From the NCBI RefSeq assembly GCF_000221185.1, contig NC_015865.1, forward strand, positions 186,001 through 250,000: a DNA stretch of 64,000 bases, written 5' to 3'. Shown piece by piece: positions 2,354 to 59,183 of this stretch. Position numbers and translations under genes: made by a program. The notes under the pieces were generated by a model. The model did not search any database. It saw only the letters and a program-made list of their open reading frames with translations, and was not told where the DNA came from. The stretch comes from Thermococcus sp. 4557 (GTDB taxonomy: Archaea > Methanobacteriota_B > Thermococci > Thermococcales > Thermococcaceae). The first letter of the stretch is position 1. The number at the start of each line of letters is the position of its first letter.

Positions 2354-2528
2354 GCACATCACCTCAGTTTACTGCATAGAATAGTGCGTCCGGAAGTATA
2401 AAAGTCTTTCCGTTAAGATGGCGGTCGAAAAGAGGGCACTGGACTTTTAGACAAGTTGAAATCAATGGACACGAGGCTCAAAATTAAACCCTATTGGAAG
2501 AAGGGGGGAACTGGAACCTCCAGAGGTC

Positions 2529-2822
2529 TTAAAACTTCTCCTCACATTCACACGGCTTCTTTCCGCAGTAGGGGCAGACGCCGGGATATTTCTTCTTCGC
2601 CGCTTCCTCAATATCGATATCGAGCAGGTTGGCCAAGCTGGCGAGCCACGCCAAAACGTCGGCGAACTCCTCCTCCATGGCCTCGCGGTCGTTCTTCCTT
2701 ATTGCCTCGCTCAGCTCGCCAACTTCCTCTACGAACCAGAGGAAGGTTCTCTCCACTCCCCTCTTCGAGTCCTTGTGGAAGTAGATCTCCCTGATCATCT
2801 CCTGAAACTCGCGTATCTCCAT
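2529..2822 (-). CDS. MazG-like nucleotide pyrophosphohydrolase with C-terminal zinc ribbon
   Basis: A 97-residue all-alpha MazG-type protein. The metal-binding acidic signature is visible as EEVGEL followed by EEEFADV about 15 residues later; this fold hydrolyses NTPs or dNTPs to the monophosphate and pyrophosphate (house-cleaning). The C-terminus adds a short knuckle, CPYCGKKPCEC, not needed for the MazG core and probably binding zinc. The gene stands alone between the tldDE operon and the ATPase operon and is divergent from the latter. Minus-strand GAGAACATG precedes the start. The nucleotide preference cannot be read from the sequence. Confidence 0.85.
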   Translation of the reverse strand: MEIREFQEMIREIYFHKDSKRGVERTFLWFVEEVGELSEAIRKNDREAMEEEFADVLAWLASLANLLDIDIEEAAKKKYPGVCPYCGKKPCECEEKF

Positions 2823-2876
2823 GTTCTCACCTGAGGAAATGGGAAGAAAAGGGCTTAAAAATCACTCGCTGATAAC

Positions 2877-2934
2877 AAACTATATAAGCATGATATACAA
2901 CATATTTGTCGTACGACAGTTGTGTTGTACGACA
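2877..2934 (+). promoter_or_regulatory. TATA box with two near-identical 12-bp palindromes (operator)
   Basis: TATATAA at 2881-2887 is a good archaeal TATA box. About 25 bp downstream, where transcription should start, lies the perfect palindrome TGTCGTACGACA (2907-2918), followed 16 bp later by TGTTGTACGACA (2923-2934), which differs by one base. Both lie ahead of the ATG at 2955. The position over the start site suggests repression of the ATPase operon. The regulator is unknown; no DNA-binding protein adjoins except the winged helix inside the second ATPase. Confidence 0.65.
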
Positions 2935-2954
2935 CCATAGTTGGGGATGATAGA

Positions 2955-4139
2955 ATGGTTCAGATCGGCGGGCCGGCACTGGGAGAAGACTTCCATGACA
3001 GAGAACGGGAACTCTTAGAGCTTAAAAGGAAGGTGTTAAAGAACAATATCCTTATCACAGCCCCCCGACGGTTTGGAAAAACCTCTCTGCTCAGAAAGTT
3101 CGAGGGTGATATGAAGAAGAATGGGTATACTGTAATTTATCTCGACGTTATGGATGTATCGTCCCCTGAGAGATTTATCCATGAGCTAACTTTGGCAGCT
3201 TTTGATGAGGCTGATCTTAGAGATGACTTTTTCGAGAAACTTAAAAAGATATTCAAAGGCTTAACTATAGATGCGAAAACACCCGTTGCCTCTTTAAAGC
3301 TTGAGCTAAGCAAAGTTGTTGAAGACAATGTCAATGAGAAAACCTGGCATGACACTGGAAGGGAAATAGTTAAGGCAATCGTCGGCTCTTCTGAAAAGAA
3401 ACCTGTCATTGTTATTCTCGATGAACTCCCGGAGGCAGTGTCCAATATGAAAAAGAAAGGTTCCGATGCCGTTGAGTTTCTCCAGTGGTTTAGGAAAGTG
3501 AGACAGAAAGTTCCAGAGATCAAATTCATCGTAGCGGGTTCCACGAGTTTTGAGAAAGTGGTAGAATCAATAAGTGGAAGAAATGCATACATAAATGACA
3601 TGTACACCATTTCACTGAGTGGATTTTCAAAGGAAGACGCTCTGAAGTTTCTGGAAACAGCGTTCGAGGAGGATGATCTCCCATTCACAGGAGGAATTGG
3701 GAATAAAATCCTCGAACTTGTGGGGGAACCGTACGTCCCTTATTTCCTTGCAGTTTTTGTGGACATCTTATATGAAGCGACGGAAGAAGGAACGAGTCCT
3801 GATGAAATCTTTAACCGGCTTGAAGAGGTGTACTGGTCAAAACTACTCGGAAGTGAAGGTACTAGGTACTTCCGCGATTATGGTGATAGACTCAAGATAT
3901 ACTACTCCGAGTATCTTGAGCCAGTAAAGGAAATACTAAAGGAGGCCGCTGGTAGTGAGGAGGGAATTAATGTAGACCTTGCTAAGGAGATATTCCTAGA
4001 GCGCACGGGATGCAGTGAGGATGAGTTCAACCTCCTCCTTAGAGATCTAGAGAATGACTTCTATATCTCTGTGAGGGGTGATCGTATAATCTTCCAGTCA
4101 AAACTAATGAAGGATTGGTGGGGGCTGAACTATGGATGA
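2955..4139 (+). CDS. Archaeal P-loop ATPase (AAA+/STAND-like), first gene of operon
   Basis: A 394-residue protein with a P-loop APRRFGKTSLL near residues 34-44, a Walker B VIVILDELPE near 155-165, a sensor-like VAGST, and a C-terminal region that looks like a winged helix. It belongs to the broad archaeal ATPase group related to PF01637. I chose ATG 2955, preceded by GGGGATGATAG; a GTG at 2922 lies inside the operator. Its last 8 bases overlap the next ATPase gene, so translation is probably coupled. The DNA is richer in A/T than the flanking core genes, suggesting acquisition. Biological role is unknown; a defence or stress role is only inference. Confidence 0.75.
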   Translation: MVQIGGPALGEDFHDRERELLELKRKVLKNNILITAPRRFGKTSLLRKFEGDMKKNGYTVIYLDVMDVSSPERFIHELTLAAFDEADLRDDFFEKLKKIFKGLTIDAKTPVASLKLELSKVVEDNVNEKTWHDTGREIVKAIVGSSEKKPVIVILDELPEAVSNMKKKGSDAVEFLQWFRKVRQKVPEIKFIVAGSTSFEKVVESISGRNAYINDMYTISLSGFSKEDALKFLETAFEEDDLPFTGGIGNKILELVGEPYVPYFLAVFVDILYEATEEGTSPDEIFNRLEEVYWSKLLGSEGTRYFRDYGDRLKIYYSEYLEPVKEILKEAAGSEEGINVDLAKEIFLERTGCSEDEFNLLLRDLENDFYISVRGDRIIFQSKLMKDWWGLNYG

Positions 4140-6612
4140 TGCCTTGTACCTTTTTAATCCCTCAGTCATGGAAAGAGAGATCCTTGAGAGGATATTTGTA
4201 GGGGAAGAACGGAGGAGACTCCTTGAAAGACTAAGGCGAGATATCCTTAAGGGGGCTAGAATAAACAGTCCTCGCTACTACTTGGTAATCGGACCAAGGG
4301 GTATAGGGAAGAGCCATTTTGTGACTCTCTTATACTATCGGCTCTTGGAGCATTCCGACGAGTTGCTCCCAGTAAAGCTCGCAGAGGAGGAGTACTCTAT
4401 CTTTACCTTGGCGGATTTTCTTGTTAGGGTTTTGGAGGCGATGGGGAAACGTGATGTGGTCAGCAAACTTGAAGACCACACTGAAGAGGAGATAATTGAA
4501 CTGGCCAAGGAATTCTTGAAGGAAAATAGAAAGATGATCGTGGTTATACTTGAGAATCTCAATCAAATACTTGAGGAACAAATGACGGAGGAAGAGGTCA
4601 AAAAATTCCGCTCCTTCCTTCAGGAGACAAACTTCATGAGCATTGTCTCGACGGCTCCCTCCATTTTCCCAGGGGTATCAAAGCACAGCGCTCCATTCTT
4701 CAACTTCTTCCGCATGATTCATCTTCACGAAATGAGCAGGGATGAAGTGTGGGAACTCCTCCGGAAACTCGCCGAGATAGAGGGAGACTCAGAACTGATT
4801 AGGAGAATAAATGAATCAAGAGGCCCAGTGAATGCCGTTATTAGAATTACCGGTGGCAACCCAAGGGCGGTTGTTTTACTCTACAACGTGCTGAAGAGCG
4901 GTGAGGTTGTAAGTGCTGAGAACCTTCTTTTCAAGATACTGGACGAGAGCACACCGTACTATCAGAGCATATACTCAATGCTCGATGGTAGGAAGAGAAA
5001 AGTTCTCGATACCTTAATCATGATTGGTCGGCCTGCAACGCCCAAAGAGATTGCACGAAAGGCAAGAATGGACGAAAGATCCGTTGCTACCTATCTCCGT
5101 AGGCTAGAAAGGGAGGGCTATATTCTCTCAAAGAGGGCAGGTAAAAACACATACTACTCAGTAAGGGACGTCCTCTTCAAGTTATGGCGGGAGCTGAGGA
5201 TCAATCCCAGCCAGAGGGGGATGGTATCTTTGTTCATCGAGTTTTTGCAGGTTTGGTACACTCCTGAGGAGATCATTGAGAGGCTATCTAACCTATTAGA
5301 AGAAAAAGAACTTGACAAAAAAAGGGCAAAGGAAATTGCATACCTATTTTTCAGCCTGCCTAAGGACTATAAAATGATGATTGTGGAACCAGTCACCAGA
5401 AAACTTCTAGAAGCAGGATTTGTAGAGCTAATAGAAGAGAACCTAAGTGACATGGAAGTTAAGGAACAGGCACTTTTTGTGGAATTCATCGAACTTATGA
5501 AAAATGGGGAGTATGAGAAAATCCTCAAAAAGGCCAGTCGGCACATAGAGAGGGGCGAAAAAAGCCCCATCCCGTGGATGTTTAAGGCAGCAGCCCTAGA
5601 CGAACTTGGGAGGGAGAAGGAGGCTGAGCAAGTTCTTAAAGATGCCATTAACATGTTCAGAGACAGCTGGCTTGTGCTGGCCACACTGGGCTTTTTCTAC
5701 CTAGCAAAAGAAAAGCTCTCTGAGGCAATAGGTCTCTTTGAAAGAGTCATTGGAATGGCGCCTGAGCTACATATAGGATGGGCCCTGAAAGGGGAGGCCC
5801 TCATGGCCATGGGGAGGTACTCTGAAGCATTGGAAGCACTGAACAGGGCAATTTCTTTGGCTGCAAATATAGAGAACGCAGAGTTGTACTTAGACCGCGC
5901 TAGGTGCTATCTTAACCTTGGTAAATTCGAAAAGGCTGCGGAAGACGCTCAACGTGCTCTTGACATGGAGCCAGATCATCCGAGCGCGATAAGGATACTA
6001 GCTCTTTCCCTTATAGAACTCGAACGCTACGAGGAAGCGATTCCTCTGCTTGACCAATACTTGCAAAAACATCCCGAAGACTGGAGTGCATGGAGAATCA
6101 AATTAGGTTCCCTGGGCTTGGTAGGAAAAGGTGAGGATGCTATAAACACTGCAAATGAGATTGTAAAGAGGTATCCTATGATTACAGATGCCTGGCTGGT
6201 TCGTCTGGATATCTATCTCGGAGCTACTCTGGAAGCCCTCATTGAGGGAAACTTTGGGAATGCAAGGAACTACCTCTCAACTACGGTTGAGACTATAAAC
6301 AGAGTTCTAACGCTTGATCCGACTAGAACAAAGGAAACAGTAAGTGCAATATCCGGTTTTCTGAGAAATGTTGTTGAATACTGTGATATGAATGCGCTCA
6401 AGCTCTCACTGGAATACCTTAGAGGCGTCAAGAACCTCAAAGAGATATTGGAACCTTTTGAGGTTGCAATTAATGTGCTGGAAACTGGAAATGAGAGAGC
6501 GTACCTAAAACTTAATCCCGAAAGTCGGAAAATTGCAGAGGAAATAGTTAAAAAAATGAAAGAGCAGAAGACTTTAGGGGAGACGGTAAGAAAACTGGGA
6601 ACACAGAAGTAG
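4132..6612 (+). CDS. P-loop ATPase with winged helix and TPR repeats
   Basis: An 826-residue multidomain protein. The order is: P-loop GPRGIGKSHFV near residue 53, Walker B MIVVILENLN near 130, a winged-helix segment around 285-350 (GRPATPKEIARKARMDERSV...), a helical linker, then tandem TPR-like helices from about 450 to 700 (for example SEALEALNRAISL, FEKAAEDAQRALDMEPDH). This is a STAND-like layout: nucleotide switch, DNA or protein contact module and a superhelical sensor. No N-terminal effector domain is evident. The start overlaps the upstream ATPase by 8 nt. The pair could sense a ligand through the TPRs and signal through the first protein; that is inference. Confidence 0.75.
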   Translation: MDDALYLFNPSVMEREILERIFVGEERRRLLERLRRDILKGARINSPRYYLVIGPRGIGKSHFVTLLYYRLLEHSDELLPVKLAEEEYSIFTLADFLVRVLEAMGKRDVVSKLEDHTEEEIIELAKEFLKENRKMIVVILENLNQILEEQMTEEEVKKFRSFLQETNFMSIVSTAPSIFPGVSKHSAPFFNFFRMIHLHEMSRDEVWELLRKLAEIEGDSELIRRINESRGPVNAVIRITGGNPRAVVLLYNVLKSGEVVSAENLLFKILDESTPYYQSIYSMLDGRKRKVLDTLIMIGRPATPKEIARKARMDERSVATYLRRLEREGYILSKRAGKNTYYSVRDVLFKLWRELRINPSQRGMVSLFIEFLQVWYTPEEIIERLSNLLEEKELDKKRAKEIAYLFFSLPKDYKMMIVEPVTRKLLEAGFVELIEENLSDMEVKEQALFVEFIELMKNGEYEKILKKASRHIERGEKSPIPWMFKAAALDELGREKEAEQVLKDAINMFRDSWLVLATLGFFYLAKEKLSEAIGLFERVIGMAPELHIGWALKGEALMAMGRYSEALEALNRAISLAANIENAELYLDRARCYLNLGKFEKAAEDAQRALDMEPDHPSAIRILALSLIELERYEEAIPLLDQYLQKHPEDWSAWRIKLGSLGLVGKGEDAINTANEIVKRYPMITDAWLVRLDIYLGATLEALIEGNFGNARNYLSTTVETINRVLTLDPTRTKETVSAISGFLRNVVEYCDMNALKLSLEYLRGVKNLKEILEPFEVAINVLETGNERAYLKLNPESRKIAEEIVKKMKEQKTLGETVRKLGTQK

Positions 6613-6622
6613 CCTCTATCCA

Positions 6623-7312
6623 TCATTCTTTATTCTCGCTCGCTACCTCGATGAGCTTCCTCATGTGGATCTCAACGGTATCAAAGACCTCGGCCTCAAC
6701 GTCCCCCTGCTTCACTATCAGCGGGAGCTCGGTGCAGCCGAGGATGACGCCTTCGATTCCTTCCTTATCTATGTAGCGGTTGATGAGGTTGAGCACCCAG
6801 TCCCTGCTGGCGAAGTTCTCGAACATAAGCTCCTCGGTGATGATTCTGTTCAGCTCGTCCATCTCCCCCTCGTTCGGCGTGATGACATCGAAACCGGCCT
6901 CGCGGAGGGCGTTCTTGTAGAAGTCGGCGGTCATGGTGGTCTTAGTGCCGAGGAGGAGAACCTTCCTAACGCCCCGCCTCTCCATCTCCTCGATGAGCGC
7001 ATCGATTATGCTCACCATCGGGACGCTTACGGCCTTCTGGATCTCCGGGAAGACGATGTGTGGTGTGTTAGCCGAGAGCGATATTATCTCCGCTCCAGCA
7101 TTCTCAAGGGCCTTGGCGGCCTTTATGAGTATCTCCTTCCTCCCCTCCCAGCCGTTCGGGTTGTGGATGAACTCCTTGAAGTTTATGGAGTAGATTATCA
7201 GCTCGGGGAAAACGTAGGGCTCGAACTTTTCGCGGCTTATCTCCAGGTATTTCTTGTAGTAATAACACGTCGCCTCGGGGCTTGTTCCGCCTATTATTCC
7301 TATCTTCCTCAT
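6623..7312 (-). CDS. Aspartate/glutamate racemase family protein
   Basis: A 229-residue protein with the racemase N-terminus MRKIGIIGGTSPEAT and the C-terminal catalytic motif GCTELPL. In the N-terminal half the usual catalytic Cys of CNTxH is replaced: the sequence reads SANTPH, so only one of the two proton-transferring cysteines is present. Members with one Cys (YgeA-like) still racemise some acidic amino acids, so activity is possible but substrate and stereochemistry are uncertain. ATG 7312 is chosen over 7336 because GGTGAT lies just ahead. It converges on the ATPase operon with 10 nt between stops. Confidence 0.8.
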   Translation of the reverse strand: MRKIGIIGGTSPEATCYYYKKYLEISREKFEPYVFPELIIYSINFKEFIHNPNGWEGRKEILIKAAKALENAGAEIISLSANTPHIVFPEIQKAVSVPMVSIIDALIEEMERRGVRKVLLLGTKTTMTADFYKNALREAGFDVITPNEGEMDELNRIITEELMFENFASRDWVLNLINRYIDKEGIEGVILGCTELPLIVKQGDVEAEVFDTVEIHMRKLIEVASENKE

Positions 7313-7363
7313 GAGAATCACCAAGAAACGGGACATCCCAGGGTTTATGAGCCTTTTGGAGTA

Positions 7364-8086
7364 TTAGATGAAAATTTCTTCGAATGTATAAGAAAGTTTG
7401 GCTATCACACCCAGCTCGTCACTCCACGCACAAAGCGGGGCGCCGTTGTGGGTTCCCTCCAGTATCATCGGGTCGTACGGTACCGTGCCGAGAAGAGGGA
7501 CCTCTAGTTCCTCGGAGACGAACTTTTCAAGGGCCTCCAGGTTCTTTTCTGGTATGAGCGGCTTGTTGAGAATCACCCAGAAGTCCTCGATTCCCAGGTG
7601 GAGGAATTTCCTGATCGCCGAGTCCACCCAGTCGTGAAGGTTCCTCAGGGGCACGGTGCTGGGATCTATGACGAGCACATGGTAATCGAGCTCCGGGATG
7701 AGCGGGTGGGCGTCTATCGGAAGGCCCGAGGGGAAATCTATGAGGACGGCGCCGTATGCAGGTTTAAAGTACTCGATGAGCGTCGTGAGGCTTTTGAAGG
7801 ATAGTTTGTGTCGTATTGGGGCGTTGGGGTCGCCCAGGAGGAGATGTAGGTTCTTTATCTCCATGTACGGATACGTTAGCCACTCCAGGTCCATCCTTGG
7901 GTTCTCCAGATAGGAGTGAATCGTGTATTTGGGGGTAACCCCAAACTGAAACGCTAGGTTGGGGAAGTACAGGTCGGCGTCGACGAGAAGGGTTCTGATG
8001 CCTCTCATGGCTAGGCAGGCCCCTATGTTCGCAGTTAGGGCGGTCTTACCGCTGCCTTCAAAACCGGTTATTCCTATGACCACCAT
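7364..8086 (-). CDS. ParA/MinD-type P-loop ATPase
   Basis: A 240-residue ATPase with the SIMIBI P-loop GFEGSGKTALT, switch I-like DADLYFPN and Walker B VLIDFPSG. The first Lys of the deviant ParA/MinD Walker A (KGGxGKT) is absent here; the position is Glu (FEGSGKT). Relatives place proteins or cargo in cells or load iron-sulphur clusters; no partner gene is adjacent, so the role stays open. ATG 8086 is preferred (AAAGTGAG ahead) over an upstream start at 8134 that would extend through the promoter. It is divergent from nothing and read in the same direction as the MscS gene upstream. Confidence 0.75.
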   Translation of the reverse strand: MVVIGITGFEGSGKTALTANIGACLAMRGIRTLLVDADLYFPNLAFQFGVTPKYTIHSYLENPRMDLEWLTYPYMEIKNLHLLLGDPNAPIRHKLSFKSLTTLIEYFKPAYGAVLIDFPSGLPIDAHPLIPELDYHVLVIDPSTVPLRNLHDWVDSAIRKFLHLGIEDFWVILNKPLIPEKNLEALEKFVSEELEVPLLGTVPYDPMILEGTHNGAPLCAWSDELGVIAKLSYTFEEIFI

Positions 8087-8178
8087 TCTGCTCACTTTGT
8101 AACGAGTTCTGATAATAATAAAACTGGGTGGCAAGGTTCAAAAATCTTTTCTTGAAAGTTAAAAAGAGGGAAAGGGCA

Positions 8179-8991
8179 TCACTCGGGCATCTCCCTGACG
8201 TGAACGTCGAGCTGCGGGAACGGGATCTCGATGCCCTCTTTCGTGTAGAGCTCGTATATGCCCTTCGTGAGGTCGCCCTTTACGTCCCAGTAGTCGTCCG
8301 TCTTGGCCCATGCCCTGAGCTGCAGATTGATAGAGGAATCCGCGAGGGCCGTTATCACGACGCTCGGCTCGGGGTCATCGAGCACCTTTGGATGGCTCTT
8401 CATCAGGTCCATGGCAAGCTTTATCGCCCTGTCGAGGTCCGTGCCGTAGGCGACGCCTATATCGACGCCAACCCTTCTCGTTGGCATGCGGGTGTAGTTC
8501 ACGATTATGCTTCCCCACACGAGCTTGTTGGGTATTGTTATTATCCTGTTGTCGGGGGTTTTGAGCTCGGTGCTCATAAGTCCGATGCCGCTGACGCTTC
8601 CGGTCTGACCCGACACCTCAACGACTTCCCCCAGGTCTATGGGCCTAAGGGCGGTTATCCAGACGCCCGCGGCGAGGTTGGTGAGCGTATCCTGCAGACC
8701 AAAGCCCAAGATCAAGCCTATGACCGCCGAGAGGCCGAGTATTAGCGGCGATACTGAGATGCCGACGGCACCGAGCGCCACTATGATGACTATGATGTAG
8801 AGCAGTATCGCCAGGAACCTCCCCAGAAACTCGATGACGAGCGGTGGGAGCTTCGTTTTCCGCATGCTCTTTTTGAAGAGCGAGACCAGAATCTTTGCCA
8901 CGATGTAGCCCACTATCAGGATTATCAGCGCCGATACCAGCTGGAACGGCGTAACCCCTATGTAGGGCAGGGGCTCATCCAGAGCCGCCAT
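8179..8991 (-). CDS. Small-conductance mechanosensitive channel, MscS family
   Basis: A 270-residue membrane protein. Three predicted helices occupy about residues 15-125: VSALIILIVGYIVAKILV, FLAILLYIIVIIVALGAVG and the pore-type helix SAVIGLILGFGLQDTLTNLAAG, rich in Gly and Ala as in MscS TM3. A beta domain follows (LGEVVEVSGQTGSVSGIGL), then the alpha-beta cage ending PFPQLDVHV. The size is that of minimal E. coli-type MscS. The channel releases solutes from the cytoplasm on hypo-osmotic shock. It stands alone, with GAGGTGATAGC before the ATG. Confidence 0.92.
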   Translation of the reverse strand: MAALDEPLPYIGVTPFQLVSALIILIVGYIVAKILVSLFKKSMRKTKLPPLVIEFLGRFLAILLYIIVIIVALGAVGISVSPLILGLSAVIGLILGFGLQDTLTNLAAGVWITALRPIDLGEVVEVSGQTGSVSGIGLMSTELKTPDNRIITIPNKLVWGSIIVNYTRMPTRRVGVDIGVAYGTDLDRAIKLAMDLMKSHPKVLDDPEPSVVITALADSSINLQLRAWAKTDDYWDVKGDLTKGIYELYTKEGIEIPFPQLDVHVREMPE

Positions 8992-49818: not shown

Positions 49819-50481
49819 CTAAACCTCTCTAAGCTTTTTCCACACCTCGTTGTACTGGAGTGCTAGCCAGTACTCTCTCAGTTTTCTCTGAGCACGTATG
49901 TAATCTGGATAATAGTCCCTCACAAGCGCCCAAAATGCTCGGGAGTGCTTTTGGAACCTGAGGTGGGCCACCTCGTGGATTATGATGTAGTCCCTGAGCT
50001 CCTCCGGCAACGCCATAAGCATAAGGTTAAAGCTTAGATTTCCCTTCTCGGAGCAGCTCGCCCACTTCGTCTTCTGGAAGCGGATGTAGATTTTCCGGTA
50101 CTTTACCCCAAAGACTGATGAGAAGAGTCTCACCTTGAATTCCAGCTCTTCTTTCAGCTGACTTTTCAGCCATCTTTTTAGGGTTCCCAAATCGTTGTTT
50201 GGCAAGAGAACCACGTGAAACTTTGGATTAACCCAGAACTCCTTCGACTCGATGAGTTCGTAGAACTCACCGTCGAGTAGGAGCTTATTGGAAAGCGGAA
50301 GGAACTTTATCTTGGCTTCTTCGATTTCCCTTAGCTTCTTCTCTATCCACTCTCTCTTTCTCTTCATCAGATCCTCGACATCTGCGTTTGGTGGGATTAC
50401 TACCTTAACCTCCCCAAGGGGGCTTATCTCGATGCGGGGATACTTAACATCCCTCAGAATCACGCGATACTCTATCCCCAC
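49819..50481 (-). CDS. YgjP-like metallopeptidase (DUF45/M48-related)
   Basis: 220 residues. The zinc motif is HEVAHLRFQKHSRAFW (HExxH plus third His), preceded by the family motif KTKWASCSEKGNLSFN. Members of this family are often last in type I restriction operons; they may process or turn over restriction subunits, but this is inference. It overlaps the end of hsdR by 10 bp on the same strand, so it is translated from the same message. Confidence 0.85.
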   Translation of the reverse strand: MGIEYRVILRDVKYPRIEISPLGEVKVVIPPNADVEDLMKRKREWIEKKLREIEEAKIKFLPLSNKLLLDGEFYELIESKEFWVNPKFHVVLLPNNDLGTLKRWLKSQLKEELEFKVRLFSSVFGVKYRKIYIRFQKTKWASCSEKGNLSFNLMLMALPEELRDYIIIHEVAHLRFQKHSRAFWALVRDYYPDYIRAQRKLREYWLALQYNEVWKKLREV

Positions 50482-53420
50482 CTTTTGAGCACCTCTAGGA
50501 GCTCGTTGCGCGTCTTGATGATATCGTCACATTTTCCCTTATATTCCCCTACGATAAATAGCATAATTCTCCGCGAGATTTCGCTGACGATCTCAGTTTT
50601 CTCCGTCCAACGGGTGAACCTAAGCGCCTCCGTCTCCTTGAGCAACTTTCTGACCCCTTCGATAAGCTCTCGGGTGTTGCCCTTTACGTGCCTCTTGAGC
50701 ACCATCAGGAGGGCGTATTCGAGCTCGTTCAAACCGAGCTCTCTCTGCTCCTGTGAGCGCTTTTCTATTTCCTCGGCTATTCCAAGGAGCTCATCATAGA
50801 GCTTCTCGATTTCTTCCTTCTTGTGCCTCCAGGCTTCGATTATCCTTTCAACTTGTTCAATCAGATCCTCGCTTAAAGGCCCCTTGTGGGTGTTTACGTA
50901 GTGTCTGACTGAGAACAGGAGGTTAGTAAACGCCTTCCGCTTATCCCTCTCCCTCATTACTTTCCTGAGGAACTCCTCGTCAATTTCGATTACTGGGAAG
51001 TCGGCCTTTATCTCCTCTATGTCAACGGTCTCCTGTATGAATCTGAGCGCCTCCTCGAAGAATTCGTCGGCTTTGAGTTCAACTTCCGGCGGGATACCGT
51101 CAACCTTCGATCTGTATGCATAGTAGACCTCCGTGAGCCATTTGAAGGCCTCCCTGAACTCATCTCTGTCCTCCCTGAGGAGCTTGTAGTGGTGCCTTAT
51201 CTCCCTGTACAGCCTCTGGAACTCCTCGCCCTTGTTGTTTCTGAACAGCGTCTCGACTGCGTTCATTATGGTCCCCCTATCCCGCCTCGGCTCAAGATCA
51301 TCAAAGTACCCCATGGCCTTGGCGATCTTTTTCCCGAGCTCTTTCTTTATCTTCTCGACGCTGTAGGCGGCCCCTTCGATATCAACCTCGTCGTAGATTT
51401 CCAGCGCTCTCTTCAACTCCTTGAATATGCCCACGTAATCTATAACGAGGCCGAAGGGCTTGATGTTCTCACCGTTCTTGATGAAGGGCCTGTTGGTCCT
51501 CGCTATCGCCTGAAGGAGTCTGTGCTCCTTGAGGGGCTTGTCTAGATACATGGTTTGAAGAATCGGGGCGTCAAAGCCCGTGAGGAGCATATCGGTAACT
51601 ATCAGAATCTTTGGGATTTCCTTGTTCCTGAAATCCTCACGAATCCTCTCGCGGATTTCGGCCATATCTTTTCCGGGAAAGCGCTCTTCAAGCTCTTTTT
51701 GATATTCCTTGATAACCTTGTCATCGTCCCGATTGAAAGTCATCACGACCTCGGTGTATTCCCTTGGCAAATACTTGTCGAGAGCACGCTTGTATAAGAC
51801 GCAGGACTCCCTATCAACCGCTACCACCATTGCCTTAAACGGCTCCACGCTCTCCTTGTAGTGCCTTGCTATGTCCTCGGCTATCATTTCGATCCTCTTC
51901 GGGTTTTTCAGGAACACCTTTATCGCGTTGAGCCTCTTCTTGAGCTTCTCCTCAACCCTCCCGCGGTACTCCTCCGGGATTTCCTCCAGCTTCGATGAGA
52001 GAAACGCCTCAAGGAGCTCCCTCTTTAGGTGAACGTCCTCCTCAAGCCTCGCCTGATAGGCTATCTTCACGGTAAATCCGTCCTCTATGGACTGCGTTAT
52101 GAAGTACCTGTCGAGGTAGGGCCTGTCCTTATGGCCGAAGGTGGCATAGGTGTCGCGCCCTTTCTTCGCTATTGGCGTTCCTGTAAAGGCGAAGAAGGAC
52201 GCGCTTTTGAGTATCGAGCGCATGGTTGAAGCGAGCTCGCCGTACTGGGTTCTGTGGCCTTCATCTATCAGAACCACGACGTCCCTGCGGTTCATTATCG
52301 TCTTTCTTCTCCGGCTTTCCCTCTTGAGTCCCTCCAGCACGTCGTTGAGGTCCTCAGCGCGGAACTTGTGGATGAGCGTGATGAATATTCCCCTCTTCCC
52401 ATCGGCGTGGGTTAGGACTTCCTTGAGCTTCTCGATTGAACCTACCACTTCAAAGCTCAGGCCCACGGCCTTAAGCTCGCCGCTCAGCTGTCTCTCAAGT
52501 TCCCTCCTGTCAACGACGAAGAAAATCGTGGGATTGCCGAGCAGGCGCTTGATTTTATATGCGGAGAATATCATGGTCAGCGTCTTCCCGCTTCCCTGCC
52601 AGTGCCAGATTAAACCCCTGTTCCTCTCGGTTTCCCCCTTAGCGTAGCCGACGGCGATGTTTACTATCTCCCTGACTGCTCTGTACTGCATGTACCTCGG
52701 CAGAACCTTCGTGAAGGCTCCGCCGCTCTCACGGTAGAAGGTGAAGTATCGGAGGACGTCAAGGAGAGTCCCAGGTTTTAAAAGCTCAACCAGGTTATCC
52801 AATTCGTCAAAGCTCTCTCCCTTCCATTCGTATACCGGGACGCTCCCGAGCCACGGTACTATGGGGAAATAGACGGGTTTATCTCCAACCGCGATGCCGA
52901 TCTGCACGTACTTGAAGAGCTCGGGCATTTCCCTCTCGTAGTTCTTAATCTGCTCGTAGGCCTTTTTCCAGCTCACGTCCAGCCTTTTGCACTCGATTAT
53001 AACCAGCGGGATGCCGTTGACGTAGAGGATTAGGTCGGGTATCTTGGTCTTAAACGGATAGCCGACCTGGTTGGCGACGAGGAACTCGTTGTTTCCGAGA
53101 TTTTCGTAGTCTATGAGCATCAACCTTTTAGGCTCGCCCGTTTCTTCATCCTTCACGGGGACGCCGTTTTTGAGATAGTCGAGAACCCTGCGGGAACCTT
53201 CAACGCCAAAGTGAGCAGTCTTAAGGAGGTTTATTGCCTCCTCCGCTTCCCTTTCGCTAACTCCGTTTATCCTCACTATCGCATTCTTTGCCCTTGAGAT
53301 TAAGAGGGGCTCGTTTTCGTCTTCGAGGACCTCGATGCCCCTCTTATACTTCCAGCCCTTCGATTCCAGCCGCTTGATGATGGGCTTTTCGCACTGAAGA
53401 TATTCGGGGGTTTCATTCAA
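50472..53420 (-). CDS. hsdR: Type I restriction enzyme, R subunit
   Basis: About 982 residues: N-terminal nuclease domain with PDLILYVNGIPLVIIECK (PD...E-x-K), superfamily 2 motor with HWQGSGKTLTM (motif I), VLIDEGHRTQ (DEGH-type box), FFAFTGTPI (motif III) and ATDMLLTGFDAP-like motif (TDMLLTGFDAP), and a helical C-terminus. It translocates and cuts unmodified DNA in complex with HsdM and HsdS. I chose TTG 53420 (GGGAGGTG ahead) rather than TTG 53450; the start overlaps the MNT gene end. Confidence 0.93.
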   Translation of the reverse strand: MNETPEYLQCEKPIIKRLESKGWKYKRGIEVLEDENEPLLISRAKNAIVRINGVSEREAEEAINLLKTAHFGVEGSRRVLDYLKNGVPVKDEETGEPKRLMLIDYENLGNNEFLVANQVGYPFKTKIPDLILYVNGIPLVIIECKRLDVSWKKAYEQIKNYEREMPELFKYVQIGIAVGDKPVYFPIVPWLGSVPVYEWKGESFDELDNLVELLKPGTLLDVLRYFTFYRESGGAFTKVLPRYMQYRAVREIVNIAVGYAKGETERNRGLIWHWQGSGKTLTMIFSAYKIKRLLGNPTIFFVVDRRELERQLSGELKAVGLSFEVVGSIEKLKEVLTHADGKRGIFITLIHKFRAEDLNDVLEGLKRESRRRKTIMNRRDVVVLIDEGHRTQYGELASTMRSILKSASFFAFTGTPIAKKGRDTYATFGHKDRPYLDRYFITQSIEDGFTVKIAYQARLEEDVHLKRELLEAFLSSKLEEIPEEYRGRVEEKLKKRLNAIKVFLKNPKRIEMIAEDIARHYKESVEPFKAMVVAVDRESCVLYKRALDKYLPREYTEVVMTFNRDDDKVIKEYQKELEERFPGKDMAEIRERIREDFRNKEIPKILIVTDMLLTGFDAPILQTMYLDKPLKEHRLLQAIARTNRPFIKNGENIKPFGLVIDYVGIFKELKRALEIYDEVDIEGAAYSVEKIKKELGKKIAKAMGYFDDLEPRRDRGTIMNAVETLFRNNKGEEFQRLYREIRHHYKLLREDRDEFREAFKWLTEVYYAYRSKVDGIPPEVELKADEFFEEALRFIQETVDIEEIKADFPVIEIDEEFLRKVMRERDKRKAFTNLLFSVRHYVNTHKGPLSEDLIEQVERIIEAWRHKKEEIEKLYDELLGIAEEIEKRSQEQRELGLNELEYALLMVLKRHVKGNTRELIEGVRKLLKETEALRFTRWTEKTEIVSEISRRIMLFIVGEYKGKCDDIIKTRNELLEVLKRWG

Positions 53421-54018
53421 TGAAAGGCACCTCCCGGGCGAACTCTCCAATCAGCACGGGGGCAAGTTCATAGCTTAGCCCCCACAGTGAGAGGAACTCC
53501 TTGAACTTATAGACCGAGCCAATGGGCACGAGGACAACTCCTGGAGCGAGCTCCATTGAGTTCGTCTGCTTTAGCAACCCCAGGTTTCCATTTCTGCCCC
53601 GATACGCGTAGAGGAAACGCATCTTTTCGCTCTGGGGAAGGGACGAGTAGGAGAATCTGAAAAGAAAGTAGCCATTGGCGTTGAGACGTTCATGAAGAAA
53701 CTTGCCGTTGAGTAGAGAGTACCCCTCGACCAGGAGGGCAAAGCCAACGAGGTTGTTCTCGTCAAAAAGCTCCTCAAGAAGAAAGCCCTTTACATCCACC
53801 TCTTCAGGCGAAAAACCGTTCTCCTCCAGAAGGCGCTTAAACTCGAAGGAAATCTCAAAGGGATTGCCCTTTTTTACGATTACAGCAATATCCACATCGT
53901 TTGGTTTTTCTTTTCCTTTAACCGAAGAGCCGTAAAGAAGGATATCCCAGACGTCTGGATTTTCGGAAGCAAACTCCTTCGCTATCTCACTCAACCTTTT
54001 CCTTAAGTCTGATAACAT
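53413..54018 (-). CDS. MNT nucleotidyltransferase with C-terminal extension
   Basis: 201 residues. The minimal nucleotidyltransferase signature GSSVKGKEKPNDVDIAVI (G-S...D-x-D) is at about 30-47. The C-terminal hundred residues are an extra domain without recognised motif. In HEPN-MNT modules the MNT protein is the antitoxin and can AMPylate the HEPN toxin. It overlaps the HEPN gene by 32 bp upstream and hsdR by 8 bp downstream, so toxin control and restriction share one transcript. Confidence 0.85.
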   Translation of the reverse strand: MLSDLRKRLSEIAKEFASENPDVWDILLYGSSVKGKEKPNDVDIAVIVKKGNPFEISFEFKRLLEENGFSPEEVDVKGFLLEELFDENNLVGFALLVEGYSLLNGKFLHERLNANGYFLFRFSYSSLPQSEKMRFLYAYRGRNGNLGLLKQTNSMELAPGVVLVPIGSVYKFKEFLSLWGLSYELAPVLIGEFAREVPFIE

Positions 54019-54319
54019 CGCTCTTCACCGCTATCAGAAGCCTGTCATCGACCCGCCTCGTGTATGTGTCCCTGTAATATGGGAAGTAATGACTCAGAAC
54101 GCTGTACAGGTCGGGATAGCGCAGTTTTAGCAGTCTAAACCTCTCCCTGTGGTTGTCCGGCAGAACCCTGAGGTCACGCCAGAGGATGTAATCGCATATT
54201 GCCACGAGGGATTTAAAGTACATCATGAACGCGGCGTTGGTGAGGCCTTCCTTAAACAGCAACTCGGCGCTCTGAAAATACTCATCGATGTTATCTTTTA
54301 GATCTTCAAGTCTTCCCAT
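53987..54319 (-). CDS. HEPN-domain protein, partner of MNT
   Basis: 110 residues, all helical: MGRLEDLKDNIDEYFQSAELLFKEG, a central LVAICDYILWRDLRVLPDNHRERFRLL and a YTRRVDDRLL end, the pattern of HEPN toxins and substrate-binding partners of MNT. A classical R-x4-6-H RNase motif is not clear, so it may be inactive or use another site. ATG 54319 follows CGTGATA and a TATA (CTTTTATAG) at 54349-54357. A longer in-frame reading to 54430 would translate the operator repeats and is not favoured. Confidence 0.75.
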   Translation of the reverse strand: MGRLEDLKDNIDEYFQSAELLFKEGLTNAAFMMYFKSLVAICDYILWRDLRVLPDNHRERFRLLKLRYPDLYSVLSHYFPYYRDTYTRRVDDRLLIAVKSDVIRLKEKVE

Positions 54320-54327
54320 ACTATCAC

Positions 54328-54419
54328 GTTTATGGATAAACGCGGAAGGGCTATAAAAGGCTTTTTGTTTATCGATAAACAGAAAAGCCGAGAAAAAGCT
54401 GATTTGTTTATCGATAAAC
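54328..54419. promoter_or_regulatory. Three palindromes at exact 39-bp spacing round the HEPN-MNT promoter
   Basis: GTTTATGGATAAAC (54328-54341), GTTTATCGATAAAC (54367-54380) and GTTTATCGATAAAC (54406-54419) start exactly 39 bp apart. The last two are perfect 14-bp palindromes, the first differs at one central base. The minus-strand TATA box (54349-54357) lies between copies 1 and 2, so copy 1 covers the start of transcription. The intervening DNA also shows weak similarity between units, so this is a degenerate 39-bp tandem repeat as well as an operator array. It also lies ahead of the divergent membrane-protein gene. Confidence 0.75.
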
Positions 54420-54491
54420 AAAACCGGCATGAAAGCCTTGATTTTGAAACAGTGTCTATATAAACATGAGGAGCATCAGCATCGGATGGTG

Positions 54492-54716
54492 ATGCCTGTG
54501 ATAAGCATGGGGACGAACCTCTTGGGGTTGGGGATACTGGTAGCCGTGGGCATAATATTCCTGAGTAGGATTCTCGATTTGTTGAAGGATTATGCTGGAG
54601 TTATCGTGGCGCTGGTTGGTTTGGCCATGATATTCGCTCCTGAGTTTCTGATGTCGCAGAGTTTGATTGTGGGTGTGTTTTTGGTAATTGCCGGGATTGC
54701 GTTGGCTACTAGTTAG
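54492..54716 (+). CDS. Small membrane protein, divergent from HEPN-MNT
   Basis: About 74 residues, with two to three hydrophobic segments: NLLGLGILVAVGIIFLSRIL, YAGVIVALVGLAMIFA and SLIVGVFLVIAGIALA. CTATATAAAC (54455-54464) is a TATA box, giving a start of transcription near 54488; ATG 54486, 54492 and 54507 are possible starts. Its stop overlaps the end of hsdS by 4 bp. It is the only plus-strand gene in the island and faces the palindrome array. Role unknown; a membrane-acting toxin or membrane-stress factor is conceivable. Confidence 0.6.
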   Translation: MPVISMGTNLLGLGILVAVGIIFLSRILDLLKDYAGVIVALVGLAMIFAPEFLMSQSLIVGVFLVIAGIALATS

Positions 54717-56005
54717 TACTTTACTCTCCTCCTTCCTGTCAGCAAATCCCTCATCAGCCCGCGCTTAACGCGCTCAAGCTTCTCCCTTCTCCGCCTGAGG
54801 AGTTCGAGCTTTCTGTCAACTGTGGAGAGGATTTCGGCGATTTGTTTTTGTTCGGAGAGAGGTGGGAGGGGGAGTTTAAGTCTCTTTATGGTTCCTGCAT
54901 AGAGTGCGGGTAATGTGGTGCTAGAACGTGCTGCGTTTATCTGCCATGGGATAATCTTAGAATCGTTGATAATACGTTCAAGGTACTCAGGCCAGAGTAT
55001 CTCTGGGTTAACTCTTATTATTGCAAGATTTGTGTGAATAATGCCTTTTTCTACCCCCTCAGGAACTACTATTGCCTTCCCAACGGTTCCACGTATTGTT
55101 AATAGAATATCACCTGGCTTAACTTCCATACTCTTTAGCTGTTTGAATTTTTCTGGGGAGATGTAAATGTTGCCGAGCGAAAAGTCTCTCCTTAGAACAT
55201 TATCTTGGGTGTATACTTTGATCCCTCTATCTGTCAACTCACTTTTTCTAAGTTGGCTTCCAAAGGGCCCAGTTTTTATCTTCTGGGCAATCTCCCCCAA
55301 CCTAACAACCTGCCACTCTTCCGGAATCTCGCCCAGCTCGGTCTTCTTGAACCGCTCGTGCTTGATGCCCTTCGTTAAAAGCCTCTGCATGAGGCCATTC
55401 TTTAGGCGCTCCGTCCGCTCGATGGCTTCGTCGGTTTTCTCGATGGCATTGTCAACGGTGCGCAAAATCTCGGCGATTTTCTTCTGCTCGGGGAGGGGTG
55501 GGAGAAACAATAGTAATCGTTTCAGTTCGCTGTTTTTTATTCCCCCAATCATGCCATGGAATGCTTGTTGAATCTGTACTTGAGCAAATGGGGAGTACAT
55601 AAAATAAAATAAGAACAAGTTATGAAGTGTATTGAAGTCTTTTGGCCTCAGAAGATAGACATGTTCATTTATGGCAACCTCTGAGTAACCTTTTATGTCC
55701 TCAACGAACGCGACTTTACCTGTTGTTGCTCCATCCTTAACAAGTAAGATATCCCCAACTTTGACCTTTCCTTTTCTAAGCTGAGCAAAGAACTCCTTGG
55801 GAATGAATTTCATATTTTCCCATTTAATTCTGCCATCAGAACCAATGTGTTCTCCACCAATGCTTGGAACTTCTCCCGCTTCTTGGCCTCCGCCTTTTGG
55901 TCGTTTTCCGCTTTCAAAGTGGACTACTTCTCCAAGCCCCACAACCACCCAATCCTCAGGAATCTCGCCGATTGGAGTTTTCTTGAACTTGATTTCAGCA
56001 TTCAT
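54713..56005 (-). CDS. hsdS: Type I restriction enzyme, S (specificity) subunit
   Basis: 430 residues with the typical two-fold layout: target recognition domain 1 (TPIGEIPEDWVVVGLGEVV...), first conserved helix PPLPEQKKIAEILRTVDNAI, then domain 2 (TELGEIPEEWQVVRLGEIA...) and the second helix PPLSEQKQIAEILSTVDRKL. The two domains set a bipartite DNA target. ATG 56005 follows TGGTGACTAAA, overlapping the end of the HEPN gene. Target sequence cannot be predicted by eye. Confidence 0.94.
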   Translation of the reverse strand: MNAEIKFKKTPIGEIPEDWVVVGLGEVVHFESGKRPKGGGQEAGEVPSIGGEHIGSDGRIKWENMKFIPKEFFAQLRKGKVKVGDILLVKDGATTGKVAFVEDIKGYSEVAINEHVYLLRPKDFNTLHNLFLFYFMYSPFAQVQIQQAFHGMIGGIKNSELKRLLLFLPPLPEQKKIAEILRTVDNAIEKTDEAIERTERLKNGLMQRLLTKGIKHERFKKTELGEIPEEWQVVRLGEIAQKIKTGPFGSQLRKSELTDRGIKVYTQDNVLRRDFSLGNIYISPEKFKQLKSMEVKPGDILLTIRGTVGKAIVVPEGVEKGIIHTNLAIIRVNPEILWPEYLERIINDSKIIPWQINAARSSTTLPALYAGTIKRLKLPLPPLSEQKQIAEILSTVDRKLELLRRRREKLERVKRGLMRDLLTGRRRVKY

Positions 56006-56006
56006 T

Positions 56007-57620
56007 TTAGTCACCATATATGTTTTCAATTTCTGACTTTAGGAGGTTTTTCAACGTGTCCAACAACATACGGGCGTCGCCTTTGTTAATAGGTCTTGCA
56101 TGATGGATAAGGTCATTTCGTTTGCCATTTAGGTTTTTAATAGTGTTATATATATTCCCCTCAATAATGCCATGGAGTTCAAGTACCTCTAGTTTTTTAT
56201 GTAGTTCCCACTGATCTAACTTCTCTTTACGATTCTTTGAGAGTTTTTTGTCTACCCATAACCTTCTCCAAAATCTAGAAATAAGTCGTTCTAGTCCTAC
56301 CCATCCCATAATAAAAGACTGATTAAACTCTGATTCGAGATAGTGGGAATATGCTTCAAGAAAGAGGATAAGGATTGTAGTCAAATCTTCATCCGTATAA
56401 ACTGTTTCTGCATAACCAACTGCCTTTTTAATTGCATCAACCCCAAGGATAGGTCGCGTGTGTGGAGCTGAAATAATTGATCGGTGAATATACTTATAAA
56501 TTGGCTGTGATTCATCAGATGGAATATATGACCTGAAAATGTAAAACCTTGGGGGCTTTCTGGGATAGTACACCTCTTTTAGGTCGGAATATCGTGTTGC
56601 AAAAAAATTTGCATTTCCTACAAAGATGGTTAATAAACTGGTAATCAGATTTATTACCTTCCTCGCTTCCTCTCGTGATCGTGTTAGGACTAAAATCATT
56701 CCATTGTTTTTAATTTCAATCTCTATCTCTCCAATTTTGAATTTCTCGCTAGGGCTTGGAGAGATTATTGGTTTCAATAGCACGTGTTCGTGAAAGTTTC
56801 TCATTGGCTTCTCAAACACCCAGACTGGTGGATATAAGTATGCTGCATATCCAACAATTTCAATGCTGTCAGAAAAAGATCTGGACTCTTTGTTGTTCTC
56901 CTTTGGAGCTGTTTTAGCCAGTGACATGGCACTATCAAGGAGTTCTCTAAGTTCTTCAAGAAGCTTTTTTTGATCCAATTCTGCAATATTGCCAAAGAAG
57001 ACATCAATTTGGCCATCAGGGGGCAAGAATACTGTACGTTTTGTGAAGTACATCCCAACAGTGAAAGGTTCCACCATAACGGTTCCAAAAAGAGGCGAAT
57101 AACGGTAGCTATATAAAAATAGGCTAAGAAACTTAGCAAATACATCAGCATATGTTAAATTTTCACCATCTGAAAAACCTATGTTGGTCCCAGCGGGTAG
57201 TTCTTCAACTGTGAAAATGTCAAATTTTTTGAGATAATCCTTGAAGTCACTTGGAAATTCTTTTTTCCACCATCCCTCACTATTTAGTACTTCGTTTATT
57301 CTATATAAGAACTCATGACCTAAGTAGGGGCCATGAACTATTACCTCCTTGTCATCTCTCTCTGGATCATGGGTAGTTACTATTATTTGCCACTCACAGG
57401 GTTTGCTCATCCAGAACACCTCTATTTGGCAGGGATACCTGAATGGTTCAAGATATACTAGCTTCATTAGATTAAGTGGATCTTCTAAATCCTCTTTCTT
57501 GATGTCGTCTAAGTTCTTAATGCTGTTTAACATGGGATATTCTTCTCTTACAGAATCAATGAGGGAGATGAACCATTCTTTTACTTGGTTTAGTTCTTTT
57601 TCATAGGATGATTTTTCCAT
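56007..57620 (-). CDS. 537-residue protein with C-terminal HEPN (Apea-like) domain, inside the RM operon
   Basis: The C-terminal 130 residues read ESEFNQSFIMGWVGLERLI... and LNGKRNDLIHHARPINK, the two helices of Apea-like HEPN domains; RNDLIH (about 500-506) is an R-x4-H ribonuclease motif. The first 380 residues have no recognised domain. The DNA is markedly AT-richer than hsdM or hsdR. It lies 10 nt behind hsdM and abuts hsdS, so it is made with the methylase and specificity subunits. By analogy with anticodon nucleases guarded by type I RM enzymes it may be an RNase released when restriction fails; this is inference. Confidence 0.7.
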   Translation of the reverse strand: MEKSSYEKELNQVKEWFISLIDSVREEYPMLNSIKNLDDIKKEDLEDPLNLMKLVYLEPFRYPCQIEVFWMSKPCEWQIIVTTHDPERDDKEVIVHGPYLGHEFLYRINEVLNSEGWWKKEFPSDFKDYLKKFDIFTVEELPAGTNIGFSDGENLTYADVFAKFLSLFLYSYRYSPLFGTVMVEPFTVGMYFTKRTVFLPPDGQIDVFFGNIAELDQKKLLEELRELLDSAMSLAKTAPKENNKESRSFSDSIEIVGYAAYLYPPVWVFEKPMRNFHEHVLLKPIISPSPSEKFKIGEIEIEIKNNGMILVLTRSREEARKVINLITSLLTIFVGNANFFATRYSDLKEVYYPRKPPRFYIFRSYIPSDESQPIYKYIHRSIISAPHTRPILGVDAIKKAVGYAETVYTDEDLTTILILFLEAYSHYLESEFNQSFIMGWVGLERLISRFWRRLWVDKKLSKNRKEKLDQWELHKKLEVLELHGIIEGNIYNTIKNLNGKRNDLIHHARPINKGDARMLLDTLKNLLKSEIENIYGD

Positions 57621-57629
57621 CGTACCACC

Positions 57630-59183
57630 TCAATACCCCAGCTCCCTCAAATACCCCTCAATCTTCTCATCCACCTTGGCCAGCTCCTCGTTAATCCCCT
57701 TCAGCTCTTCCCACTCGGCCTTAACGTCAATCTCCTCCTCCTCTTCCATCGGGAAGACGTAGAGGGTGACGTTGAGGTTGTAGTCGTTCTCCTTTATCTC
57801 GTCCAGCTCAACGACGCGGGCAAAGCCGTCAGCGTCCTCGAACTTCTCAAAAGCTTTGACGATTTTCCTGATGTGCTCCTCGCCGAGGCGGTTGAGCTTC
57901 CTAACCTCCGGGTGCTTTTCGTATTCCTGGGATGCGTTGATGAAGAGGACTTTATTCTTTCTGTTCTCTGGCTTGTTCCTGTTGAATACCATTATCGCAC
58001 CCGGCGCGCCGGTGTTGTAGAACAGCTTTTCGGGGAGGAGAATAACGGCCTCAAGCAGGTCGTCCTTGAGTATCTTCGCCCTTATCTTCTTCTCGGCCCC
58101 GCCCCTGAAGAGCGCGCCGTTGTCTATGACGATGCCGACCCTTCCATCATCTTTGGCGCTCGCGAGCATATGCTGGATCCACGCCCAGTCCGCGGAGTTG
58201 TTGGGCGGATAGCCGTACTTGAAGCGCTCCTCCTTAAACTCGGCCTTCTTGAGGGTCGCCTCGCCGTAGCCGTCCTGATTCCAGGGCGGGTTGGCTATAA
58301 CCACATCGAAGCGTTTGAGCCTTTCGCCCTCCTTAAACTGTGGTCTCAGAAGTGTATCACCAACGGCAAGCTTCGGCGACTTAATGCCGTGGAGTATCAT
58401 GTTCATCTCGGCTAAAGCGTAGGTGGTCGGGTTTACCTCCTGGCCGTAGAGGAAGAGCTTTTTGGCCTCATCCGCTCCTCGATGCTCCTTGACGTAGAGA
58501 TAAGCCCCGATGAGCATGCCTCCGGAGCCCATCGCGGGGTCGTAAACCTCCTCGCCTGGTTCGGGCTTAAGGATCTCAACGAGGAGCCTGATGACTTCTC
58601 TTGGAGTGTAAACCTCGCCCTCCTTGGCCTTCTGCGGGGCAAAGTAGCGGAGAATCCACTCGTAGGCGTCACCAAGAACATCGGGGGAGGCGTTCTTTAA
58701 GTCAAGCCCGCTGAAGAGCTCGAAGAGCTGCCTGAGTATCTCGGCATTGTCCCTGTGGAGCATGAACTCCATGAAGTCGAACCTGTCAACGACTCCCCTG
58801 AGGTTGGGGTTCAGCTCGGCGAGCTTCTTGAGGGCCTGCGAGAGGTTCTGGGGAAGGCTCTCGATGTCCTTCTCGCGGAGCTTCCTCCAGAGGTATTCGG
58901 GTGGATAGTTGATGGTGTACGCTTCCCTGTCCTTGAGGGCAAGCTCTTCGGCGGTCTTCCTGTCCAAGCCTTCGTTCATGAGCTTCTGGGTATATTCCTC
59001 AAACTCCTTCTCCCACTCGTCGCTTAGTCTCTTCAAGAACAGCAGGAGGAGGATGTACTTGTAATCCACGCGTGTTCTGATTAAATCCGCGGCCTTCTTA
59101 AGAACCCTCTCAAGCTCCTCGCGGGTCAGACCTTTGTTTTCTTGAGCTGGTGAGTTGATAAAATCCGTGAGCTTCCTCTCCAT
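57630..59183 (-). CDS. hsdM: Type I restriction enzyme, M (methyltransferase) subunit
   Basis: 517 residues: N-terminal helical HsdM domain, SAM motif VYDPAMGSGGMLIGAYLY (about 212-228), catalytic VVIANPPWNQDGYG (NPPW, about 299) for N6-adenine methylation, and DNGALFRGGAEKKIR. It methylates the site named by HsdS and so protects host DNA. ATG 59183 follows GGTGTGAATC. First gene of the island transcript. Confidence 0.95.
   Translation of the reverse strand: MERKLTDFINSPAQENKGLTREELERVLKKAADLIRTRVDYKYILLLLFLKRLSDEWEKEFEEYTQKLMNEGLDRKTAEELALKDREAYTINYPPEYLWRKLREKDIESLPQNLSQALKKLAELNPNLRGVVDRFDFMEFMLHRDNAEILRQLFELFSGLDLKNASPDVLGDAYEWILRYFAPQKAKEGEVYTPREVIRLLVEILKPEPGEEVYDPAMGSGGMLIGAYLYVKEHRGADEAKKLFLYGQEVNPTTYALAEMNMILHGIKSPKLAVGDTLLRPQFKEGERLKRFDVVIANPPWNQDGYGEATLKKAEFKEERFKYGYPPNNSADWAWIQHMLASAKDDGRVGIVIDNGALFRGGAEKKIRAKILKDDLLEAVILLPEKLFYNTGAPGAIMVFNRNKPENRKNKVLFINASQEYEKHPEVRKLNRLGEEHIRKIVKAFEKFEDADGFARVVELDEIKENDYNLNVTLYVFPMEEEEEIDVKAEWEELKGINEELAKVDEKIEGYLRELGY

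Follow-up and report, generated by a model that had tools for sequence, protein, structure and literature searches.

A HEPN-family gene occupies an exchangeable slot between hsdM and hsdS in a type I restriction-modification operon of Thermococcus

The type I restriction-modification (R-M) operon of Thermococcus sp. 4557 carries, between hsdM and hsdS, a gene encoding a 537-residue protein with a predicted HEPN helical bundle and an R-x4-H motif in its C-terminal ~140 residues. Comparison with related operons revealed that the hsdM–hsdS interval is a replaceable slot with exchangeable cargo. Given that this slot accepts unrelated effectors and that the effector family also occurs on other carriers without R-M genes, we favor, with slightly more confidence than doubt, the interpretation that the protein is a self-contained abortive-infection-type HEPN ribonuclease, exchangeable cargo of the interval that is translated with the operon.

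The gene and its operon

In this report, the window denotes the whole 64,000-nucleotide stretch of DNA that was analyzed, and coordinates refer to it unless a locus is named. The HEPN-family gene (56007–57620, minus strand, ATG start, 537 aa) is flanked on the same strand by hsdM (57630–59183; Pfam N6_Mtase and HsdM_N), which encodes the methyltransferase subunit, and by hsdS (54713–56005; Pfam Methylase_S), which encodes the specificity subunit. The restriction subunit gene hsdR (50472–53450, minus strand; Pfam HSDR_N and SWI2_SNF2) lies further downstream. All three hsd genes are complete by domain content and enclose a co-directional foreign gene, which therefore classes as embedded. As the preliminary description had stated, the open reading frame abuts hsdS: its TAA stop codon (56009–56007) lies one nucleotide from the in-frame hsdS ATG at 56005, and alternative hsdS starts at 56017 or 56029, if used, would overlap the HEPN gene. 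The spacing to hsdM is likewise close, but amounts to 9 nt between the end of the hsdM frame (57630) and the ATG (57620), instead of the 10 nt given earlier. A Shine-Dalgarno-like GAGGTG run lies on the hsdM stop codon, before the HEPN gene (TATTGAGGTGGTACGATG). The DNA of the gene is indeed AT-richer than that of its neighbors, with a GC content of 37.4% (hsdM, 54.8%; hsdR, 51.6%) and a GC3 of 35.1% (hsdM, 76.3%). The gene is present in a single copy in the 2.0-Mb single-contig genome.

A second toxin-type pair, probably of the HEPN-MNT kind, is located between hsdS and hsdR (53413–54430, minus strand). It consists of an MntA-like nucleotidyltransferase (53413–54018), recognized by Pfam and, with a score under the cut-off, by NCBIfam NF047752, and a small partner gene (53987–54430), for which a 110-aa form is likely by homology with locus L049; the partner showed no family match and no R-N-x3-4-H motif. 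The MNT gene adjoins this small gene and not the 537-aa HEPN gene; the latter lacks the adjacent MNT gene of a type VII (HEPN-MNT) toxin-antitoxin. On the opposite (plus) strand, a small membrane-protein frame (54429–54716) lies between hsdS and the pair. The operon ends with a YgjP-like metallopeptidase gene (49819–50481, minus strand; Pfam) after hsdR, which is retained in nearly all related loci, several of which then carry an EVE-domain gene.

The C-terminal HEPN domain and the N-terminal half

The HEPN bundle spans approximately residues 394–537 (56007–56441, minus strand), as delineated by an AlphaFold2 model, a fold search and an alignment. In the model, computed from a three-row alignment, the C-terminal helices (residues 394–535) are confident, with pLDDT values mostly of 82–94. 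The leading PDB fold matches of this bundle are HEPN structures, namely HepT, Csm6 and 2q00, with AF0298 also among the leading matches and 2hsb ranking lower; match probabilities are ~0.8–0.99 and TM scores by target reach 0.71, with no E-value below 0.1. The RNDLIH sequence at residues 501–506 corresponds to the HEPN R-x4-H motif, with R501 encoded at ~56118–56120 and H506 at ~56103–56105 (minus strand). In a ten-row alignment, whose homologs are 15–31% identical to the window protein, six columns are invariant (M1, N324, W440, E444, R501 and H506), and N502 is nearly so. Conservation of R501 and H506 in ten such divergent homologs indicates that the motif is not a chance occurrence. The C-terminal HEPN domain with its RNase-type motif, proposed from the sequence beforehand, thus holds up, and the helical bundle is present in the predicted fold.

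The label "Apea-like" given to it earlier does not. Sub-threshold Pfam matches over residues ~420–528 are chiefly to DUF4145 (E 9e-4) and to Swt1-like HEPN (E 5e-3), and no ApeA family appears among the matches up to E 1. Against DUF4145 (PF13643), the window protein scores 19.7 bits with a gathering cut-off of 23.1, and its homolog L063 scores 26.0 bits, above the cut-off. Judged by sequence, the protein therefore appears nearer to DUF4145/Swt1-type HEPN than to ApeA. A profile of the ten members matched AbiV chains in the PDB (9bj5–9bj7) over its C-terminal part, with E-values of 4e-4 to 1e-3; searching the PDB with the sequence of the window protein alone gave no match. Neither NCBIfam, PHROGs nor the PDC models matched the protein, and PADLOC yielded weak matches to HEPN-containing models only. 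A Walker A motif is absent from all ten members, and Pfam revealed no ATPase family in the window protein.

The N-terminal region (residues 1–393; 56442–57620, minus strand) belongs to no known family. In agreement with the preliminary description, which had found nothing familiar in the first 380 residues, the first ~380–393 residues have no credible match in Pfam, NCBIfam, PADLOC or PHROGs. A PCQIEVFW...THD...GP block is conserved in the three closest members (the window protein, L004 and L002), and four of the ten aligned members lack the N-terminal half or have a short one. The structural check suggested earlier for residues 1–380 was informative for the C-terminal bundle and not for this part: confidence was low in two AlphaFold2 runs, over most of the first ~290 residues in the window protein and ~200 in the L004 homolog, and the second fold search returned Csm6 matches, the remainder being noise. 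Profile comparison found no N-terminal domain common to the window protein and the other cargo of the hsdM–hsdS interval.

Homologs on other carriers and the exchangeable slots

Profile searches of archaeal genomes yielded a family of ten clear members (the window protein, L004, L002, L061, L080, L062, L063, L081, L082 and L083), weaker partial matches elsewhere being left out. The closest relatives, L004 and L002, share 32% identity with the window protein, and both are encoded between hsdM and hsdS. As L004 comes from Thermococcaceae and L002 from an archaeal metagenome-assembled genome outside the phylum of the window, the R-M members are spread over two phyla. Members are rare among Thermococcaceae, being carried by 2 of 94 genomes. 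Three of the ten reside in R-M operons and six do not, while L080, on a 3.4-kb contig, could not be placed. It had been asked beforehand whether homologs always lie between hsdM and hsdS; they do not, and their occurrence mostly outside R-M loci is the pattern named there as contrary to a guard function. Phylogenetic analysis groups the three R-M members with moderate support (88/91, not starred) on long branches, which leaves room for a possible R-M-specific subclade. The hsdM–hsdS interval of L002 also encodes a second, unrelated 368-aa protein (7661–8767, plus strand) with an RNNYLH motif and no Pfam family.

The surroundings of the other members are diverse. L061 adjoins a Schlafen-type AlbA_2 protein, and L062 belongs to an island that also contains a Ymh HEPN protein and, next to tRNA-His, an integrase. 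Mrr and an OLD-type ATPase are encoded near L063, which itself is located downstream of EF-2, and L083 has an integrase a few kb away; around L082, no R-M gene was recognized within 16 kb. L081 (6344–8255, minus strand), a short member, is directly between EF-2 and a casposase-type Cas1 gene with a viral-type PolB gene nearby, so that this HEPN gene is probably carried by a casposon. This arrangement fits the known integration of casposons at thaumarchaeal EF-2, and a HEPN nuclease has been reported in a casposon (PMC6563490). No homolog was found in plasmids, phages or viral contigs, and no partner gene is conserved alongside the ten members.

To the window, L002 and L004 we added 18 further hsdM loci of Thermococcaceae, and refer to the hsdM–hsdS interval as slot A and to the hsdS–hsdR interval as slot B. 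Slot-A cargo was counted from 70 aa upward; frames were called mechanically, which makes the starts of genes and the calls of very small ones uncertain. Among the 18 loci that have both hsdM and hsdS, slot A holds cargo in 16 and none in L041 and L055. In a first group of loci, whose hsdM is 82–95% identical to that of the window, the slot contains a PIN_2 protein (L038, L045 and L050), a smaller PIN protein (L039, L040 and L044), a 346–351-aa protein with likely membrane segments (L043, L046 and L047), proteins of 558–619 aa (L004, L049 and L038) or a 595-aa protein (L052). In a distant group (47–63%), it contains Kiwa KwaA with a KwaB-like protein (L053 and L054), and in L051 a Fic protein follows hsdM on a contig broken off ahead of hsdS. 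Slot B is occupied by HEPN-MNT pairs (window and L049), VapBC-type pairs (L047 and L050), GmrSD (L053 and L054) and other genes. In most orthologous loci, DNA homology to the window breaks off around the stop codon of hsdM (57623–57637) and begins again within the first hsdS codons. Moreover, in 24 of the 25 slot-A cases, the cargo has a higher AT content than the hsdM of its own locus.

Two of these cargo types merit separate mention. L053 and L054 combine Kiwa in slot A (2516–4254 and 2957–4719, respectively; KwaA by PADLOC, KwaB-like by Pfam) with the type IV enzyme GmrSD in slot B of the same type I operons (5425–7305 and 6004–7869, respectively). The 346–351-aa protein of slot A (L043, 12654–13709; L046, 2294–3334; L047, 12176–13231) has no Pfam family and is a candidate uncharacterized defense gene.

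Proposed role and comparison with known systems

Under the favored interpretation as self-contained cargo, the C-terminal HEPN domains would dimerize and cut cellular or viral RNA, and the N-terminal region would hold the enzyme off and might sense infection, the latter being a guess given that this region is unmodeled. The R-M subunits would not be needed to control the protein. Its location would instead confer co-expression and co-transfer with the R-M system, adding a second line of defense. A precedent is provided by tgvAB, which is embedded in the type I R-M operon of V. cholerae VPI-2 and protects by itself (PMC11411939).

The strongest competitor, although we judge it unlikely, is a PrrC-like guard, in which HsdM/HsdS would bind the protein and hold it inactive until the HEPN RNase is freed, either by an anti-restriction protein or because the R-M complex is lost. 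PrrC possesses an N-terminal ABC-type ATPase, is silenced by the R-M enzyme, and, once activated by an anti-restriction factor, cuts the tRNA anticodon. The guard proposed in the preliminary description retains the co-directional placement within a complete hsdM-S-R operon and the three close members, from two phyla and grouped in the tree, that all sit in slot A, together with the precedent of PrrC (PMC3710099); a dedicated guard, however, is at odds with the missing ATPase domain, with the location of most homologs outside R-M and with the unrelated cargo of the same slot. As slot A is filled by unrelated genes, its occupancy does not imply specific contact with the R-M enzyme, and direct gating of the PrrC kind, although it may yet apply to the subclade in R-M operons, is not indicated. 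A two-slot effector platform is a somewhat fainter prospect: hsdM, hsdR and YgjP would frame exchangeable effectors, and the R-M complex would gate whichever occupies a slot. If so, toxins as different as HEPN, PIN, Fic, Kiwa, HEPN-MNT, VapBC and GmrSD would be placed under one common sensor.

An addiction toxin that stabilizes the operon and is countered by a further protein of the operon acting as antitoxin seems improbable; HEPN-MNT and VapBC-type pairs do occur in the slots, yet no conserved partner gene accompanies the ten members. We give equally little credence to direct cleavage of invader RNA by a HEPN nuclease instead of host killing, a mode listed for HEPN proteins as direct attack on viral RNA (PMC3710099), as Pfam identified no recognition domain. 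A non-catalytic RNA-binding or regulatory protein is very improbable, for although certain HEPN families are no longer active (PMC3710099), the R and H are invariant across ten divergent members.

These loci offer natural swap pairs for the question, raised by PrrC, of whether R-M systems control embedded toxins or merely carry them, and the genetic tractability of Thermococcus permits a direct test of control versus carriage. They show the cargo embedded in one orthologous R-M operon being exchanged, with breaks at gene edges, among members of an archaeal family, and they present a HEPN family of archaea whose N-terminal half is conserved and uncharacterized and whose members are found on carriers of at least three kinds, i.e., an R-M operon, a casposon neighborhood and an integrase island. 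That defense genes, HEPN included, are embedded in R-M operons is already published. In the open-licence full-text literature, we found no description of this archaeal family and its N-terminal half, nor of the turnover in the two slots of the Thermococcaceae-type operon.

At least 16 HEPN clades, including DUF4145-like ones, have been linked to R-M operons, with RNase release proposed when R-M is neutralized (Anantharaman et al. 2013, PMC3710099). The window protein resembles the DUF4145-like proteins in its C-terminal HEPN domain with R-x4-6-H and its R-M neighborhood, and L063 even passes the DUF4145 cut-off; the window protein itself falls below it and adds the ~390-residue N-terminal region of no known family. 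AbiV is similar to the C-terminal part of the family profile, but its chains comprise 184–207 aa and lack a long N-terminal region. TgvAB, a GmrSD-like pair, is likewise an independent defense system between hsd genes, and GmrSD recurs in slot B of L053 and L054; TgvAB, however, is a DNA-targeting type IV restriction system and not HEPN (PMC11411939). RloF and genes embedded in other defense clusters are also cited there, and archaeal defense candidates found by embedding are discussed elsewhere (PMC12988326). Those PDC candidates ("guilt-by-embedding"; PMC12988326, PMC11411939) are similarly defense genes inside other defense operons, whereas none of the PDC models recognizes the window protein. 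With RloC it shares a HEPN RNase domain, in its own case predicted, and membership was rejected for want of the Rad50-like ABC ATPase (no Pfam match, no Walker A). PrrC membership was rejected on the same grounds, with no ATPase family match and no Walker A in the ten members, in line with the earlier view that PrrC and RloC have a different architecture; the window protein lacks their P-loop ATPase. Like PrrC of EcoprrI, the window protein is an RNase-type HEPN protein encoded within a type I hsd operon; unlike PrrC, it has no ABC-ATPase domain, its homologs occur without R-M, and its slot also takes unrelated genes.
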